Source: a bacterium | GTDB lineage: Bacteria; Desulfobacterota; S145-22 | Direction of reading: 5' to 3' | DNA: 39,511 nucleotides | NCBI GenBank assembly: GCA_026986155.1 | Contig: JALSPC010000103.1 | Span: 1 to 39,511, forward strand | Shown here: positions 17,352-30,971 of the stretch, in pieces | Layout of the letters: the number at the start of each line of letters is the position of its first letter | Position numbering within the stretch: position 1 is the first letter of the stretch | Notes under the pieces: model-generated | What the model was told of the DNA's origin: nothing | Databases searched by the model: none | What the model saw: only the letters and a program-made list of their open reading frames with translations | Made by a program: the position numbers and the translations under genes

Positions 17352-19835
17352 GTGAGCGTTGATTCCGGGGTGAAATGCGAGTTTGCGCGTGGCGCGAGCG
17401 GGCGTAAGGCCATAGGGGGCCTTATTCTTGCCCTTTTTGGCCTTCTGTTGCTTGCCGAGTGTGCTTGCGCCTTCAATTTAAAGTCGTTTCTTTCGGCGAG
17501 AACAAAGAAATCGGCACCCACGCCCGTGACTGCCCAGATAGAGGTTACGGATCTTATCCCTTACGCGGCAAAGCTGTCCCGAGACTACTATGATCTGATG
17601 AATCAGATCAAGTTCATCTACGAACTCGGCAGGGTTAAGAGCCGCCTGGAGAAGATCGCCCAGGAGCTGGAGGATCTCTCCATTGAATTGGCGTTTCTCG
17701 GGGGGAATCCTCACCAGAACTATAACCGTCTCCTCTATTACAACGAGGAATTGAATCAGATAGAGACGGAACTGGCAAGAATCGACAAGTCCCTGTCCAT
17801 TGGCAAGACGACGTTATTGAAGGCAAGGGAAAAGTGGCTTTCCGAAAAACAGAAGATCCCCCGCTGGAAAACGATGATCGAGAGGCTGGGGCCTTTGAGC
17901 GTCGAAAGGAAGGCGCTTTTGGATATCAAGGGCACGATTCGTAACGCCCTGATGGTCATCAATCAAAGGCTTCGCCCGGTTCTTGATGTCGAGCAAAAGG
18001 TGTCGACCCTGCGCGTGAAGAACCATACCATGGTTCTCGTGGTTAACGACTGGCTGAAGACCTACAAAGGTGAGATCCTGGAGAGAAACGCCCCCTCCAT
18101 CCTCTCCCCGGCCTATTTCAGGCAGTTGAATTGGAACCTCTGGAAAGATTCCTGGAAGAGCCTGGATGAGTTTTTCGTCCAACAGGGGCACCATATGGCA
18201 AGGAACATCTGGCTCATCACCTCCCTCGCCATCGCATCCGCTCTTCTCACCTTGTTGATCTACCGGAGTCAGAACCACGTGGACATGGTTTCACGGTGGT
18301 ACGTGTTTACGAAACACCCCTTCGCATCTTCCATCTTCGTCTGCTTTACATTTTTCGGCGCGGCCGTCCGGCCCTTGCCGCCGGGCTGGATTCCCGCCTT
18401 TCAATTCGGCGTGATTCTCTCTGTCATGCACCTGGTGAAGGGAATGTTCGGAGACGCCTGGAAGTGGCGGGTGGTGAACCGGCTGGCCATCCTGATCCTC
18501 GTGACTTCGCTGATGCGCATGGTGCTCTTCCCCCGTCCCCTTTTGCGGCTGATCGTGATCTTAATCGCCTTTACCGGGATTTTCTTCTGTTTCTGGGAGA
18601 GCTGCCACCGAAAAAACGCGGAGAAATCCCCGCTCATTGTCATGAGCCTGAGGCTGGGAACGCTTATTTTTTTCGGTGTGGTCATTACGGAGATTTTGGG
18701 CTACGCGGGGTTTTCCCTCTACCTCATGAACGCCTTACTCATGACCGTCTTTGCCCTTTTAAATGTGTGGATGCTCTACCTGGTGGTAAGCGGATTCATT
18801 GAGTTTGTTTTTTACAAGTCGCCTTTTCACTTCATCCGAAAGAACGCCGAGGTGATCTTCCGCCGTGTTCGGCCCATCCTGATCATTTTCTTCTCCGCTC
18901 TCTTCTGCGTGACCGACCTTGTGATTTGGAAGGTCTACGCTACCAAGGGTGAGGCGATTCAACAATTCTTTTCCCTTGGACTGCCGGTGGGGGGAATGAA
19001 CATCACGATAGACGCGGTGCTGTCTTCTCTCCTGGTCCTTTATGTCTCTTTTCTCACCTCCTGGACCATCCAGGCCGTTTTGCTTGAGGAAGTCCTGCCC
19101 AGGCGGAAGATGGAGTTGGGGAGTCAGTTGTCTATCTCCCGGCTTGTGCACTACGGCATCGTGTTCATCGGATTTCTCATCGCCCTCCGGGTCCTGGGGT
19201 TCGGACTGACGAACCTGACGATTATCGGCGGCGCCCTCGGCGTGGGGGTGGGCTTCGGCCTACAGGCCATCGTCAACAATTTCGCCAGCGGCCTGATTCT
19301 TCTCTTTGAACGCCCCATCAAGATAGGGGATACCATCCAGGTTGACGGCGAAATGGCGGTCGTGAAACGCCTCGGTTTACGCGCCACGATCGTGCAAACC
19401 CTGGACAACGCGGAGATCGTGGTTCCCAACAGCGACATAGTCACGTCGAGGGTTACAAATTGGACACTGGCCAACCGCCGCGTGCGGGTCCGGATCCCAG
19501 TGGGCGTCGCTTACGGATCTGATGTTGCGAAGGTGAGGGAGATTCTTCTACAATGCGCGGGAGAGAACTCCAAGGTTTTGAAGTATCCCGAGCCCCAGGC
19601 CCTGTTTCTCTCCTTTGGTGACAGCGCTCTCAATTTTGAGCTGCGGGTTTGGATCAGCGAATTTATGGACAGCACGGGGGAGGTGCAGAACGAGTTGAAC
19701 CATGCCATCAACGCGAGATTTGCCGAAGCGGGCATCGAGATCCCCTTTCCCCAGCAGGACCTCCACCTGCGCAGCGTGGACACCGAGGCGGCGCGGGCGC
19801 TCCGCGACGAGAAAGCAGTGACGAGTGACAAGTAG
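17352..19835 (+). CDS. Large MscS-family mechanosensitive channel
   Basis: An 827-residue membrane protein of the large MscS type (MscK/YbdG/YnaI-like architecture). A signal peptide ends about residue 40 (LLLLAECACA). A helical periplasmic region with coiled-coil character runs to about 290, then roughly ten membrane spans. The MscS pore helix and beta domain begin near residue 625: GGALGVGVGFGLQAIVNNF, then LLFERPIKIGDTIQVDG, TLDNAEIVVPNSDIVTS and NWTLANRRVRVRIPVGVAYG. It should open under membrane tension and release solutes. The frame opens with GTG at 17352, which has no good ribosome site; an in-frame GTG at 17370 is an alternative. The last codons are built from a heptamer repeat (see 19820-19880). 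Confidence 0.92.
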   Translation: MSVDSGVKCEFARGASGRKAIGGLILALFGLLLLAECACAFNLKSFLSARTKKSAPTPVTAQIEVTDLIPYAAKLSRDYYDLMNQIKFIYELGRVKSRLEKIAQELEDLSIELAFLGGNPHQNYNRLLYYNEELNQIETELARIDKSLSIGKTTLLKAREKWLSEKQKIPRWKTMIERLGPLSVERKALLDIKGTIRNALMVINQRLRPVLDVEQKVSTLRVKNHTMVLVVNDWLKTYKGEILERNAPSILSPAYFRQLNWNLWKDSWKSLDEFFVQQGHHMARNIWLITSLAIASALLTLLIYRSQNHVDMVSRWYVFTKHPFASSIFVCFTFFGAAVRPLPPGWIPAFQFGVILSVMHLVKGMFGDAWKWRVVNRLAILILVTSLMRMVLFPRPLLRLIVILIAFTGIFFCFWESCHRKNAEKSPLIVMSLRLGTLIFFGVVITEILGYAGFSLYLMNALLMTVFALLNVWMLYLVVSGFIEFVFYKSPFHFIRKNAEVIFRRVRPILIIFFSALFCVTDLVIWKVYATKGEAIQQFFSLGLPVGGMNITIDAVLSSLLVLYVSFLTSWTIQAVLLEEVLPRRKMELGSQLSISRLVHYGIVFIGFLIALRVLGFGLTNLTIIGGALGVGVGFGLQAIVNNFASGLILLFERPIKIGDTIQVDGEMAVVKRLGLRATIVQTLDNAEIVVPNSDIVTSRVTNWTLANRRVRVRIPVGVAYGSDVAKVREILLQCAGENSKVLKYPEPQALFLSFGDSALNFELRVWISEFMDSTGEVQNELNHAINARFAEAGIEIPFPQQDLHLRSVDTEAARALRDEKAVTSDK

Positions 19836-21906: not shown

Positions 21907-22218
21907 ATGAGTGTTCTCGTTGAATTCGCTATCTTCCCCACGGACAAGGGAGAGAGCGTCAGCGCCTACGTGAGTCGGGTCCTGAGGATGTTCAAGGAAG
22001 GAGAGATTCCCTACCGGCTGACGCCCATGGGAACCGTTTTCGAGACGGAAACGATGGATGAGGCCCTGGGGCTTATCGGGAAAGCCTATGCGGAGTTGGC
22101 CCCCGACTGCCGCCGGGTTTACGTAACGGCCACGTTCGACATCCGCCAGGGACTGTCCAACAGGATGGAGGGAAAGATCGCCTCCATCGAAGAGAAGATC
22201 GGCAAGGTTGCCTCATAG
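21907..22218 (+). CDS. MTH1187-family thiamine-binding protein
   Basis: A 103-residue protein of the MTH1187/YkoF-like (DUF77) family, small ferredoxin-like proteins some of which bind thiamine or its precursors. Family features are EFAIFPTDKGESVSAYVSRV at the start, YRLTPMGTVFETE in the middle and a helix with EALGLIGKAYAEL. The ATG at 21907 is preceded by GGGGTGG at a good distance; the frame is open further upstream to 21853, but that part lacks a ribosome site and protein character. The 3' end overlaps the convergent zinc-ribbon gene by six bases. A cytosolic ligand-binding role is likely; the ligand here is not established. Confidence 0.85.
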   Translation: MSVLVEFAIFPTDKGESVSAYVSRVLRMFKEGEIPYRLTPMGTVFETETMDEALGLIGKAYAELAPDCRRVYVTATFDIRQGLSNRMEGKIASIEEKIGKVAS

Positions 22219-23565
22219 TTTTCGTCCCCATTTCAGCACGTTGCGGGGGATGGCGAAGGTAACATTCCCTTCGTAAACCGCCTCGTAGCCCGTCTGCCTG
22301 AAGGGAAGGAAGGCGAGGGTGACCCGTTCGACGGCCGGTTCGGCCCGGTTAAGATTCGGGTAGAACCGGGCTTTTTTCGCCCCGATCTCGGCCAGGACGA
22401 TGGGAATCATCTCCCGGATGCCGTCTCGTTTTAGGAGGATAGGGTAGGGCGCCTTGGGAAGCCTGTCCGCGGGGTGGGTTTCTGGCTGGGCGCAGGTGAA
22501 GACCTTGCATAGCTGCAAAAAGAGCCTTGGTCGCATCTTGAAGGCGGGAATGAAGACGTGGAGCGGGGAGGGTTTTCTGGGAATGTGGGACTGGTTCGCG
22601 AACCGGGCGAGGTCTCGGGTGTCGTGTAGTGCGAGTCGGGGTATCGTGGTCTTGATTTTCCAGAAAGGCAGGTAGAACGCATCCGGATTTCCTTTTGCCG
22701 GAACCTCGAACGGGATGGAGGCATAATGTCCCCGGCGGATTTCCCAAACCTTGTCACAGCCGGGGCACAAGACGGCCCGACTCTCCTCGGCGCAGTCCAG
22801 GTCCCAGCCGCAGTTGGGACAAAGGAGGGGCAGGGCGCCGGGAGGAGACATCGCGGTGGCGGCGGTTTTGGTGAGCCGTTCAAGGCCGGAGGGAGTCAGT
22901 TTTCCAATGGGCCGGTTCGTCAGCCCGTCGCTCAGAATCACGGTGTCTCCCGCCTCCGCCGTCACGGGGAAGTAGACGAGACTGTTCCCCTCGTCCAGGA
23001 AGGCGGAAACTACCGGATCGTATTTCTTAAAGACGGTTCGGGTCCTCTCGGGAGACCAGTGTGAAAAATCGGATCGGTCGAAGGGATCCCCGCCGGAGAT
23101 GTCCGTGAGGAAGATGTTTGGGTCGTCCCGAATGGTTTCCCTTTCAGTAATGGGGGAATTCAGCTGCCGAATCGCGCAGTCGAGGAGTCTTTTGAAGTCC
23201 CGGCGCGGGCGGATGAAGAGGCCCTTTTGCGAGTTGGCGAAGCCTAACCGCATGACCTGCGGGCGTGTGCCCAGGGAGACCATGTCAAGGGAGACATCGG
23301 TGGCGAGATAGGTCTTGTCAATGAGGCTCCCCGCCGTTTTAGGGGGGAGGTAAGCGGTAAATCCCAGCCCCTTGATTCTCCAGAAGGGGATGTAAATCGT
23401 TTCAGCGGAAGCGGTTTTAGGGGAGATGGCGTATCGGAATGGGCCGTTGGGCGTCAGGTAGAGGCGGGTTTTGCAGTAGGAGCAGCTTAGAACATGCTGT
23501 GCCTCTTTCAGGGTGACGGGAGCGCCGCACTGGGGACACTGGGTTTCGACCTGCCAGGATCGCAT
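22213..23565 (-). CDS. Zinc-ribbon protein paired with the SPFH gene
   Basis: A 450-residue protein with no recognised catalytic motif. It opens with a zinc ribbon (CPQC at 10-13, CSYC at 28-31) and has a second in the middle (CPNC...CPGC, about 248-275). Each is followed by a similar segment, AETIYIPFWRIKGLGF after the first and DAFYLPFWKIKTTIPR after the second, so the protein looks like an internal duplication of a ribbon plus beta-rich domain. No membrane span is evident. Its start lies one base after the stop of the SPFH gene (TAGGATG), so the two are translated together and probably work together. Function unknown. Confidence 0.82.
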   Translation of the reverse strand: MRSWQVETQCPQCGAPVTLKEAQHVLSCSYCKTRLYLTPNGPFRYAISPKTASAETIYIPFWRIKGLGFTAYLPPKTAGSLIDKTYLATDVSLDMVSLGTRPQVMRLGFANSQKGLFIRPRRDFKRLLDCAIRQLNSPITERETIRDDPNIFLTDISGGDPFDRSDFSHWSPERTRTVFKKYDPVVSAFLDEGNSLVYFPVTAEAGDTVILSDGLTNRPIGKLTPSGLERLTKTAATAMSPPGALPLLCPNCGWDLDCAEESRAVLCPGCDKVWEIRRGHYASIPFEVPAKGNPDAFYLPFWKIKTTIPRLALHDTRDLARFANQSHIPRKPSPLHVFIPAFKMRPRLFLQLCKVFTCAQPETHPADRLPKAPYPILLKRDGIREMIPIVLAEIGAKKARFYPNLNRAEPAVERVTLAFLPFRQTGYEAVYEGNVTFAIPRNVLKWGRKL

Positions 23566-23566
23566 C

Positions 23567-24685
23567 CTATGTCAGTTTTTCCCCGCAGGCGTTGCAGTAG
23601 AGGGAACCGTGAAGGTTTTCCGCCCCGCAGTGGGGGCAGGATATGGTCCGGGCCGCGGCCTCCATTTTTGTGCCGCAACGAGGACAGAAGCGCGCGTTGG
23701 GTGGCAGATTCTTCCCGCAGTTGGGGCATTTGTTGATGATAACGAGTTGATGTCCGCAATAGGGACAGAAACGGGCTTGCCGGGGGACGGTCTGGTGGCA
23801 TTCGGGGCAGGTGAGATTCTGCGCCTGGGATCCCGGGGAATGCTGTAGGGCTCCCGCGAGGAGGCCCGGAATAAGCATACCGACCCCGAGGCCGACGCCG
23901 CTCCCCGCCGCGCCGTCACCGGCCGATGCCTTTTCCATGGCCATGCCCGCCTTCATCTTAATGAAATCGTCAAGATTCCCCAGGACGGCCAGCCGGCTCT
24001 TGTCGTCGATGGCCTGCTGAACCTCTTGCGGGGGAGTGATGGAGGTGATGTAGAGGTTTTCAAGGCGCAACCCGTAGTCGTTGAAGTCCGCCTTGAGGCG
24101 TTCTTCCAGGCCCGCGGCGAGGGCATCATATCGGTCGGGCAGGTTGAGGATAGAATCCAGTTTCTCCCCCAGGTAATCGTTGAAGCGGGAAACGATCACG
24201 CGGCCGAGATAATCCTCGATGTCCTCAGTGGTGTAGATGCCCTGGGTGCCCACCATACGGTTGATGAAGAGGACGGGCTGCGCCACCTGGATGTTGAAGA
24301 CGCCGAAGGCCCGAAGCCGCACCAGCCCCAGCTCTGAGTCCTTGAAAGCCACGGGATCACGGGTGCCCCATTTCAGGTTGGGGAAGATCTTCATGTTGAT
24401 GAAGTAGACCTCGGCCCTCAGGGGGCTGGTAAACCCCCAGGGGAGGCTGAGAATCTTCGTGATGACGGGAATGTTCAGGGTGGACAGGGTGTGGCGTCCT
24501 GGCCCGATGACGTCGTAGGCCCGGCCGTTGTAGAAAAAGACGGCCGCCTGGTTGTCCCGCACGATGAGCTGGGCCCCTAACTTGATCTCTCCTGAGCCCT
24601 TTTCCGGGATTCGATGCACAAGTTCCTTCCCGGTCTTATCGAACCACTCGATGACCTCCAAAAAGATGATGTTATCTGTTCCCAT
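23567..24685 (-). CDS. SPFH-domain protein with three C-terminal zinc ribbons (YdjI-like)
   Basis: A 372-residue protein. Residues about 1-250 form an SPFH/virion-core-like domain ([20 protein letters not shown] at the start; [20 protein letters not shown] and [22 protein letters not shown] later), related to Bacillus YdjI and phage virion-core-like proteins. A Gly/Ala-rich, weakly hydrophobic hinge (about 255-282) leads to three zinc ribbons: CPEC...CPYC, CPNC...CPRC and CPHC...CNAC. AGGGGAAAG precedes the ATG. SPFH proteins usually assemble membrane-associated scaffolds. The ribbons suggest binding to protein or nucleic acid partners, with the downstream zinc-ribbon protein the first candidate. 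The actual process is not known. Confidence 0.88.
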
Positions 24686-24737: not shown

Positions 24738-24766
24738 CATCCTTTTCCGCGGAGCGGAAAAGGATG
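24738..24766 (-). terminator. Strong hairpin between the HD and SPFH genes
   Basis: CATCCTTTTCCGC (24738-24750) and GCGGAAAAGGATG (24754-24766) form a perfect 13-bp stem with a 3-base loop, 13 bases beyond the stop of the upstream minus-strand HD gene. No U-run follows on the minus strand, so it is not a textbook intrinsic terminator. It may end or protect the HD message or separate it from the SPFH operon. Confidence 0.5.
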
Positions 24767-29924: not shown

Positions 29925-30971
29925 TCATGTAATCTTCCATGGGCGGGGCAGAAAGATTTCCTGGTAGAGCTGGAGCGCGTAGGGGTCCGTCATGCCGGCG
30001 ATGAAATCGCAGACGCAACGTTCATAGGGTTCGTTGGCGGGGCACCTCCTTTTCACGCCTTCCAGTCTCGAGGGATCCGCCAGGAAATAGTCGAAAAGAT
30101 CCTGGAGGATCTTGGAGGCCTTGTTGAAGTCGGACGCGACGGGAGGGCTCTTGTAGACCTTTTCGTAGAGGAAAGACCTCAGGGCCAGGGCAAGGCTGCC
30201 GATGTCTGGGGAGAAGGTGATCGTTTTCAGCGGGGACCGCTCCATGGAGGTCTGCACGATATCGACGACCAAGGTGTTGATGCGCCTGGAATGGGTGGTT
30301 CCAAGCCCTCTTAGGATCTCAGGCGGAACATCCTCCATCCCGATGATGCCGCTCCGCAGCGCATCGTCCAGGTCGTGGTTGATGTAGGCAACCACGTCGG
30401 CGACGCGCACCACCTGCCCTTCCAAGGTGGCGGGGAGCTGCGCCTTCTCCGCGGGGATGATATCACCCAGTCCCTTGGAGTGCTTGAGGATGCCGTCGCG
30501 GACCTCGTAGGTGAGGTTGAGTCCCTTTCCGTCGCGTTCCAGCTTGTCCACCACGCGGAGACTCTGCTCGTAATGACGGAATCCTCCCGGAACGATACGG
30601 TTCAGGACACTCTCTCCCGCGTGGCCGAAAGGGGTGTGGCCCAGGTCGTGCCCCAGGGCGATGGCCTCGGTCAGGTCCTCGTTGAGACCCAGGGCCTTGG
30701 AGATGGTCCGGGCGATCTGGGAGACCTCCAGGGTATGGGTCAGGCGCGTCCGGTAGTGGTCCCCGGCCGGGGAAAGGAAAACCTGGGTCTTGTGCTTGAG
30801 CCGCCGGAACGACTTGCTGTGGATGATACGGTCGCGGTCGTGCTGGAAGGCCGGGCGGATATCGTCCTCCGGCTCCGGGTAGAGACGCCCCCGGGAATCG
30901 CGGCTGCGCGCGGCGTAAGGCGCGAGGATACGCTCTTCCTTTTCTTCTAGGATTTCCCTTATGTTTTCCAT
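29925..30971 (-). CDS. dgt: dGTPase-like dNTP triphosphohydrolase
   Basis: An HD-domain enzyme that splits deoxynucleoside triphosphates into the nucleoside and triphosphate. The 348-residue sequence has DRDRIIHSKSFRRLKHKTQV, the first metal His in RLTHTLEVSQIAR (H79), the HD pair in LGHDLGHTPFGHAG (H108, D109) and a later Asp in VVRVADVVAYINHDLDDA. It belongs to the shorter dgt-like (type 2/3) class rather than the E. coli type. It lies 18 bases after the RCK gene and before tsaD. It may balance the dNTP pool alongside the purine genes in the window. Confidence 0.93.
   Translation of the reverse strand: MENIREILEEKEERILAPYAARSRDSRGRLYPEPEDDIRPAFQHDRDRIIHSKSFRRLKHKTQVFLSPAGDHYRTRLTHTLEVSQIARTISKALGLNEDLTEAIALGHDLGHTPFGHAGESVLNRIVPGGFRHYEQSLRVVDKLERDGKGLNLTYEVRDGILKHSKGLGDIIPAEKAQLPATLEGQVVRVADVVAYINHDLDDALRSGIIGMEDVPPEILRGLGTTHSRRINTLVVDIVQTSMERSPLKTITFSPDIGSLALALRSFLYEKVYKSPPVASDFNKASKILQDLFDYFLADPSRLEGVKRRCPANEPYERCVCDFIAGMTDPYALQLYQEIFLPRPWKIT

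Follow-up and report, generated by a model that had tools for sequence, protein, structure and literature searches.

The locus analyzed here raises the question of whether two adjacent zinc-ribbon genes, one for an SPFH protein and the other for a protein outside the known families, constitute a functional module and, if so, of what kind. The window, that is, the entire 39,511-nucleotide stretch of DNA that was analyzed, is contig JALSPC010000103.1 of a bacterium of the Desulfobacterota lineage S145-22. On its minus strand, gene A (23567..24685; 372 aa) is followed by a single base (G, 23566) and then by gene B (22213..23565; 450 aa), the junction (23563..23569) consisting of the TAG stop codon of A, this one base and the ATG start codon of B, exactly as the initial annotation of this DNA had reported. 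An HD-domain gene (26053-24779, minus strand) ends 93 bases upstream of A; its product contains two HD stretches, both matched by HD_5, and co-transcription with A is possible. Between this gene and A lies a perfect hairpin (24738-24766; 13 pairs, 3-base loop); the 115-base stretch containing it has a folding z-score of -3.27, with no shuffle equally good, and, because no T run follows, the hairpin is not a plain terminator. On the 3' side of B there is a plus-strand gene for an MTH1187-type thiamine-binding protein, and the stop codons of the two genes overlap. Elsewhere, the window encodes an MscS-type mechanosensitive channel (17352-19835; Pfam) and a dGTPase-like HD protein (29925-30971; match to the PADLOC dGTPase model, 4.8e-82).

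The product of gene A, a scaffold protein of the flotillin superfamily, consists of an SPFH domain and three C-terminal zinc ribbons, in agreement with the initial annotation, which had described a scaffold domain plus three ribbons (all coordinates within A and B are on the minus strand). Residues 24-232 (23990..24616) match Band_7_1 (PF13421; E = 2.1e-62, 210.9 bits with a cut-off of 24), and Zn_Ribbon_1 is matched with an E-value of 7.2e-20 in three separate stretches of the region 289-371 (23573..23821), where CxxC pairs are located at residues 293, 307, 320, 334, 350 and 364. The SPFH domain has a mean identity to the window sequence of 0.73 (69 homologues); conservation is low, with a mean identity of 0.36, in the variable Gly-rich linker that precedes the ribbons (residues 233-288; 23822..23989). 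Using a Kyte-Doolittle hydropathy cut of 1.6 as the membrane-segment criterion, the linker of the window protein is mildly hydrophobic at residues 259-280 (maximum 1.72), and none of 65 homologues attains a value of at least 1.6.

Gene B encodes two consecutive units, each consisting of a zinc ribbon and a domain that we denote PFW, in the order ribbon-domain-ribbon-domain. Ribbon 1 (residues 7-36; 23458..23547; CxxC at 10 and 28) precedes PFW domain 1 (residues 43-223; 22897..23439; IPFWRIKG at 59-66), and ribbon 2 (residues 245-280; 22726..22833; CxxC at 249 and 267) precedes PFW domain 2 (residues 290-450; 22216..22698; LPFWKIKT at 299-306). The eight ribbon cysteines are invariant among 81 aligned homologues, and in the alignments each PFW domain starts with the motif [Y/L]xPFWxxK and closes with a predicted strand of the form L-x-Y/F-x-P-F/V. 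An hhalign comparison of the N-terminal half with the C-terminal half yielded a probability of 95.7 (E = 1e-8, 160 columns) and, with the ribbons removed, 78.0 (E = 1.8e-5, 113 columns), which confirms that the resemblance between the two PFW blocks, pointed out in the initial annotation, reflects a real duplication of one ribbon-PFW unit. Within its own genome, B has a single match. No transmembrane segment is predicted in the window protein (hydropathy maximum 0.92), and 4 of 80 homologues exceed the 1.6 cut.

Searches with B against Pfam and NCBIfam retrieved no family above the cut-off and only weak ribbon matches, and a sequence search of the PDB gave a best E-value of 1.2 with the single protein and of 0.047, on a ribbon, with the profile. 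The AlphaFold2 model of whole B, built from 81 sequences, has a pLDDT of 88.3 and a pTM of 0.86, with most of residues 141-176 below a pLDDT of 50; the C-terminal unit modelled alone reaches 91.2 and 0.88, respectively. With either model, Foldseek detected nothing in the PDB at an E-value of 0.001 or better, and the best VIA-align 2 hits there were ribbon-sized pieces (Z 4.4 over 57 residues for whole B; Z 4.1 over 38 ribbon residues for the C-terminal unit); a viral library searched with the B model likewise contained no match at E 0.001. The model of B thus has no convincing counterpart in the PDB, which is not proof of a new fold. An enzymatic function of B was considered and rejected, there being no Pfam or NCBIfam enzyme family above the cut-off and no evident catalytic set among the invariant non-ribbon residues, chiefly P, G, D, R, W and F. 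In neither protein was a recognisable enzyme found, in line with the initial annotation, and the refuting condition named there, a match of B to a known enzyme fold with active-site residues, was not borne out by these searches.

The case for a module comes from the conservation of the gene pair. Among 297 genomes of the phylum, B is represented in 92, an A-type SPFH protein in 91 and both in 89 (about 30%), with B alone in three genomes and A alone in two (Fisher p = 1.7e-69, not corrected for kinship). These counts were obtained with a threshold of 40 bits for B, below which 10 of the 102 genomes having a match at E 0.001 fell, and of 50% identity for A, nine genomes with 34-44% being set apart. 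In 82 of the 89 carriers of both genes, A is located directly before B on the same strand. In four of the seven non-adjacent cases (G095, G198, G199 and G273), at least one of the genes is located at the end of a contig, and in G030 and G081 the two are truly separated; the seventh case is G174. Both A-only genomes (G086 and G134) stop at a contig end; as for the B-only genomes, G051 begins at a contig end, G046 is without A, and G029 has split genes (see below) plus another SPFH gene.

In a smaller sample, B was present in 20 of 59 relatives, with A adjoining it in most of the loci fetched. A contig search returned 479 stretches with a pattern match, of which 306 encode a relative of B; the best 80 of these 306 were kept. 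They come mostly from Deltaproteobacteria, Desulfobacterales, Syntrophaceae and their kin, with four named Nitrospirae or Nitrospirota; cultured organisms are represented by, among others, Desulfosarcina alkanivorans and D. widdelii. In 73 of these best 80 loci, A lies upstream of B on the same strand; two of the others are cut by the contig end, and five have sequence upstream but no A (5 of 78 evaluable). With start codons picked by rule, the A-B gap is within -30 to +30 bases in 37 of the 73 loci and at most 100 bases in 52; the simple gene caller chose antisense frames in some loci (e.g., L150, L161 and L168). Apart from A and B, the flanks are not conserved, the most frequent neighbour family occurring in 10 of the best 80 loci. 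A evolves at a lower rate than B (mean distances of 0.30 and 0.55, respectively), and the two distance matrices correlate with r = 0.89 over 70 pairs, the best of 1000 permutations reaching 0.18, although common ancestry by itself also yields correlation. It is this conservation of the gene pair, rather than a single one-base gap, that places the link between A and B beyond chance, and it bears out the proposal of the initial annotation that the genes form a small dedicated system; the refuting condition given there, that the two genes would be unlinked in most relatives, did not hold.

Two further features of these loci deserve mention. In genome G181 (L160, 3104-4198), a portion of the A SPFH domain and the C-terminal unit of B are read in a single open frame, the product either of a deletion in nature or of faulty assembly. 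In a divergent group of loci, A is directly preceded by a third gene, C, for a helical protein of approximately 165 aa without a Pfam family (among others, L148, 6382-6888; L171, 7443-7949; L143, 4695-5252). Gene C is present in 24 of the 297 genomes, 19 of which possess A-B, and by coordinates adjoins A in all 19; it was not found in the genome of the window.

The kinship of B can be traced through a family of loci (f13; G017 and G054, and also G089 and G117) in which the place of B is taken by three individual genes (a, b and c), each encoding a ribbon and a PFW-like domain (L143, 6746-9226; L144, 7159-9652; L156, 6922-9210); G029 possesses these genes without A. In L143 and L144, the split genes are followed by an lpxC-like gene (named by eye). 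By hhalign, gene b corresponds to the N-terminal half of B and gene c to the C-terminal one, with values of 99.9 and 99.8 against the divergent B and 98.1 and 99.6 against the window family. The individual domains behave in the same way: the gene b domain matched the first domain of the window family (bD against wN) with 98.5 (E = 3.1e-15, 130 columns), and c2N matched PFW domain 2 of B (wC) with 95.8 (E = 8.2e-9, 129 columns). Gene b, in turn, is similar to the YdjG-type proteins, with 98.6 over 238 columns, and with 95.8 (E = 6.5e-9, 200 columns) after removal of the ribbons, compared to at most 1.1 in 15 column shuffles. A hydrophobic C-terminal segment is present in the products of gene a (5/5) and gene b (5/5) and in YdjG-type proteins (8/8), as opposed to the window B and the divergent fused B (0/9). 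Compared directly, the YdjG-type domain and the first domain of the window clade match weakly (47.3, with 1 of 15 shuffles as high), so the kinship runs through the intermediates; relatives that share only a ribbon with B gave short matches. Judged by this chain of profile alignments, the B unit and the YdjG-type partner are distantly homologous, the connection running via membrane-anchored intermediates. On the SPFH tree, the split-gene family arises, within the A type, from inside the divergent fused group, and the order of the fused and split states is therefore not settled.

The YdjG-type proteins used here were sampled from plasmids, where they are encoded beside YdjI-type SPFH genes and their annotation reads TFIIB-type zinc ribbon, zinc ribbon or hypothetical protein; the type was recognised from the order of the genes, the protein architecture and the description given in the available part of PMC11237479, rather than through the sequence of Bacillus subtilis YdjG. 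In Enterococcus, the gene order is SPFH, YdjG-type, TPM. According to the same portion of that article, the YdjG domain is related to YpeB and has an NTF2-like fold (PMC11237479). One of our intermediate proteins yielded a weak match to PepSY (E = 0.092), and 10 further proteins yielded none.

A, for its part, shares with the YdjI type the Band_7_1 domain and a C-terminal zinc-finger motif after a variable linker. In the SPFH tree, the 28 A-type rows make up one side of a branch with a support of 99/100 and a length of 1.61, together with one ungrouped long-branch row from Butyrivibrio; the YdjI-type rows are well apart, and this split places A outside the YdjI-type branch. One row, TFz_G029x, carries a wrong group label, its neighbouring gene not being of the TFIIB type. 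On this phylogeny, A is a separate clade beside the Bacillus YdjI-type SPFH proteins. Kinship and module taken together, we consider it highly probable that A-B is a real two-gene module related to the YdjGHI system, a described system with which the initial annotation had not recognised any kinship.

In B. subtilis, according to the available part of PMC8581546, YdjI has no anchor of its own, is carried to the membrane by its partners, requiring both of the membrane-anchored proteins YdjG and YdjH for this placement, and brings PspA there. The pspA-ydjGHI operon, as far as described in the accessible parts of two articles, resembles A-B in that an SPFH protein ending in a zinc finger, soluble in the case of Bacillus, is encoded next to a two-ribbon partner (PMC8581546, PMC11237479). 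It differs in that A-B carriers mostly lack PspA and that no TPM gene is beside the pair among the places listed; moreover, B has no predicted anchor, its unit is duplicated and each of its ribbons precedes a domain of its own, whereas the ribbons of YdjG are in tandem at the N terminus. YdjI/YdjG-type loci without a recorded PspA neighbour were detected on plasmids of Comamonas, Vibrio, Paracoccus and Tsukamurella and, within the phylum, in G100. Like A-B, these loci consist of an SPFH gene closely followed by a gene for a zinc-ribbon and PYW-domain protein; unlike in A-B, this partner has a terminal transmembrane segment (in all eight cases), and the SPFH protein is about 31-38% identical to A where aligned. 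On the Paracoccus plasmid (L186, 1-4263), the SPFH and YdjG-type genes are preceded by genes with the annotations toxic anion resistance and DUF2927.

In G047, G066 and G153, an SPFH gene also adjoins a zinc-ribbon gene, of the TFIIB type, but the partner belongs to another family (Zn_ribbon_TFIIB in G047), with only ribbon-length similarity to B; arrangements of a YdjI-type SPFH gene followed by a TFIIB-type zinc-ribbon gene were seen in the phylum at L152 (6839-7519), L177 (7605-8303) and L179 (5114-5845). Among archaea, the Meth_adaptin ESCRT loci, in the available portion of their description, encode an SPFH protein with a coiled coil and a zinc ribbon along with adaptin-appendage proteins, one of them zinc-ribboned (PMC10936438). 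The likeness to A-B, drawn by description only, is that an SPFH protein with a zinc ribbon and an adaptor-like protein that also has one are encoded together; by the same partial description, the archaeal loci differ in carrying Vps4 and ESCRT-III (PMC10936438). The literature searched, with subscription journals mostly outside it, yielded no account of the A-B pair. The general kind, an SPFH protein with a zinc-ribbon partner, has already been described.

The genome counts separate A-B from PspA. PspA (PF04012) was found in 39 of the 297 genomes, that is, in 7 of the 89 carriers against 32 of the 208 others (p = 0.09), and not in the remaining 82 carriers, the genome of the window included; in the seven positive carriers, it is located on a different contig from the A-B pair. 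Membership of A-B in a PspA-linked PSP system was rejected in view of these counts. TPM (PF04536, YdjH-like) is present in 142 of the 297 genomes and is more common in carriers (53/89 against 89/208; p = 0.011, not corrected for kinship), which mildly favours a YdjH-like link. It was not found in the genome of the window, and among the places listed it is never beside the A-B pair.

Based on the analogy with YdjI/YdjG, we propose a tentative model of this module. A would be an SPFH protein of the YdjI type, soluble and forming an oligomer with flexible tails that bear the three zinc ribbons, and B would be a soluble adaptor of two YdjG-type units that binds A, the contact being made via the ribbons or the PFW domains. 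B might let the A oligomer dock at the cytoplasmic membrane, on its inner face, or at a client protein there, with a role in envelope integrity. Because PspA was not detectable in the genome of the window, the client would be something else. What we infer for the pair, namely formation of a complex, contact between A and B, a membrane location and an envelope role, is modelled on the better-known relatives, and we rate the chances evenly that A-B is one complex acting as a PspA-independent scaffold and adaptor at the membrane surface. Of the two connections tentatively drawn in the initial annotation, the one to membrane stress draws its support from homology, through the YdjI/YdjG relation, and from inference only; the one to defence did not hold up, for the reasons given below.

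Neither A nor B has a clear membrane anchor, which counts against a place at the membrane surface and fits a purely cytosolic pair, in which A would form a closed SPFH cage and B a lid or cargo receptor, for instance in protein quality control; the SPFH8 and SPFH9 subfamilies of prokaryotes are predicted to be soluble, according to the accessible part of PMC2636767. This possibility nevertheless appears rather unlikely to us: YdjI, also without an anchor, still reaches the membrane through its partners (PMC8581546, available part), and in one family the membrane-anchored genes a and b adjoin A. The ribbons would have a different meaning in a regulatory pair in which they bind RNA, DNA or RNA polymerase and the SPFH protein is the scaffold. 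The matches that suggest such a function, to RNA-binding and transcription zinc ribbons, are weak, short and confined to the ribbons, and they are below curated cut-offs or have E-values near or above 0.05. Zinc ribbons are just as often protein-binding modules, which further counts against this reading, and we regard it as improbable. That five zinc-ribbon motifs are present across A and B might also point to zinc storage or delivery, the two proteins serving as a metal buffer; but no metal transporter or regulator recurs in the flanks, where no other family exceeds 10 of the best 80 loci, and this view leaves unexplained the PFW domains, where most of the invariant residues other than cysteine are found, so that it merits very little credence.

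Defence against phages, which the initial annotation had mentioned and which the patchy spread of the pair across families might suggest, was ruled against by several searches, and we would assign it hardly any probability. A has no match among the PADLOC models, and B has one of 13.1 bits (E = 0.0089) that falls within ribbon 1. B was not found in phage, plasmid and viral collections at the sensitivity used, and the PHROGs matches of the pair are ribbon-sized, except for a 76-residue SPFH match (phrog_200). The neighbours of A-B are changing and ordinary-looking, and in the gene clusters inspected, which are annotated in part, no defence gene recurs as a neighbour.

The reading of A-B as a scaffold and adaptor at the membrane surface has a bolder extension, which we put forward with considerable reserve and consider doubtful, namely that the pair typifies a PspA-independent class of SPFH systems in which a soluble adaptor, duplicated and of a domain fold absent from the PDB, links the ribbon tails of an SPFH oligomer. 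If true, such a class would need neither a membrane-anchored receptor nor an ESCRT-III/PspA protein, would be common across the Desulfobacterota-like lineages seen, and would be the bacterial equivalent of the SPFH-plus-adaptor machineries for sorting or membrane patches. The occurrence of the pair in cultured species (Desulfosarcina) makes it amenable to testing. SPFH proteins are widespread, yet most of those in bacteria have no known partner or job, and A-B supplies the obligate partner for one uncharacterised clade: a protein that appears to be of the YdjG type, altered by loss of the anchor and by duplication, in a module of this kind that is uncoupled from PspA.
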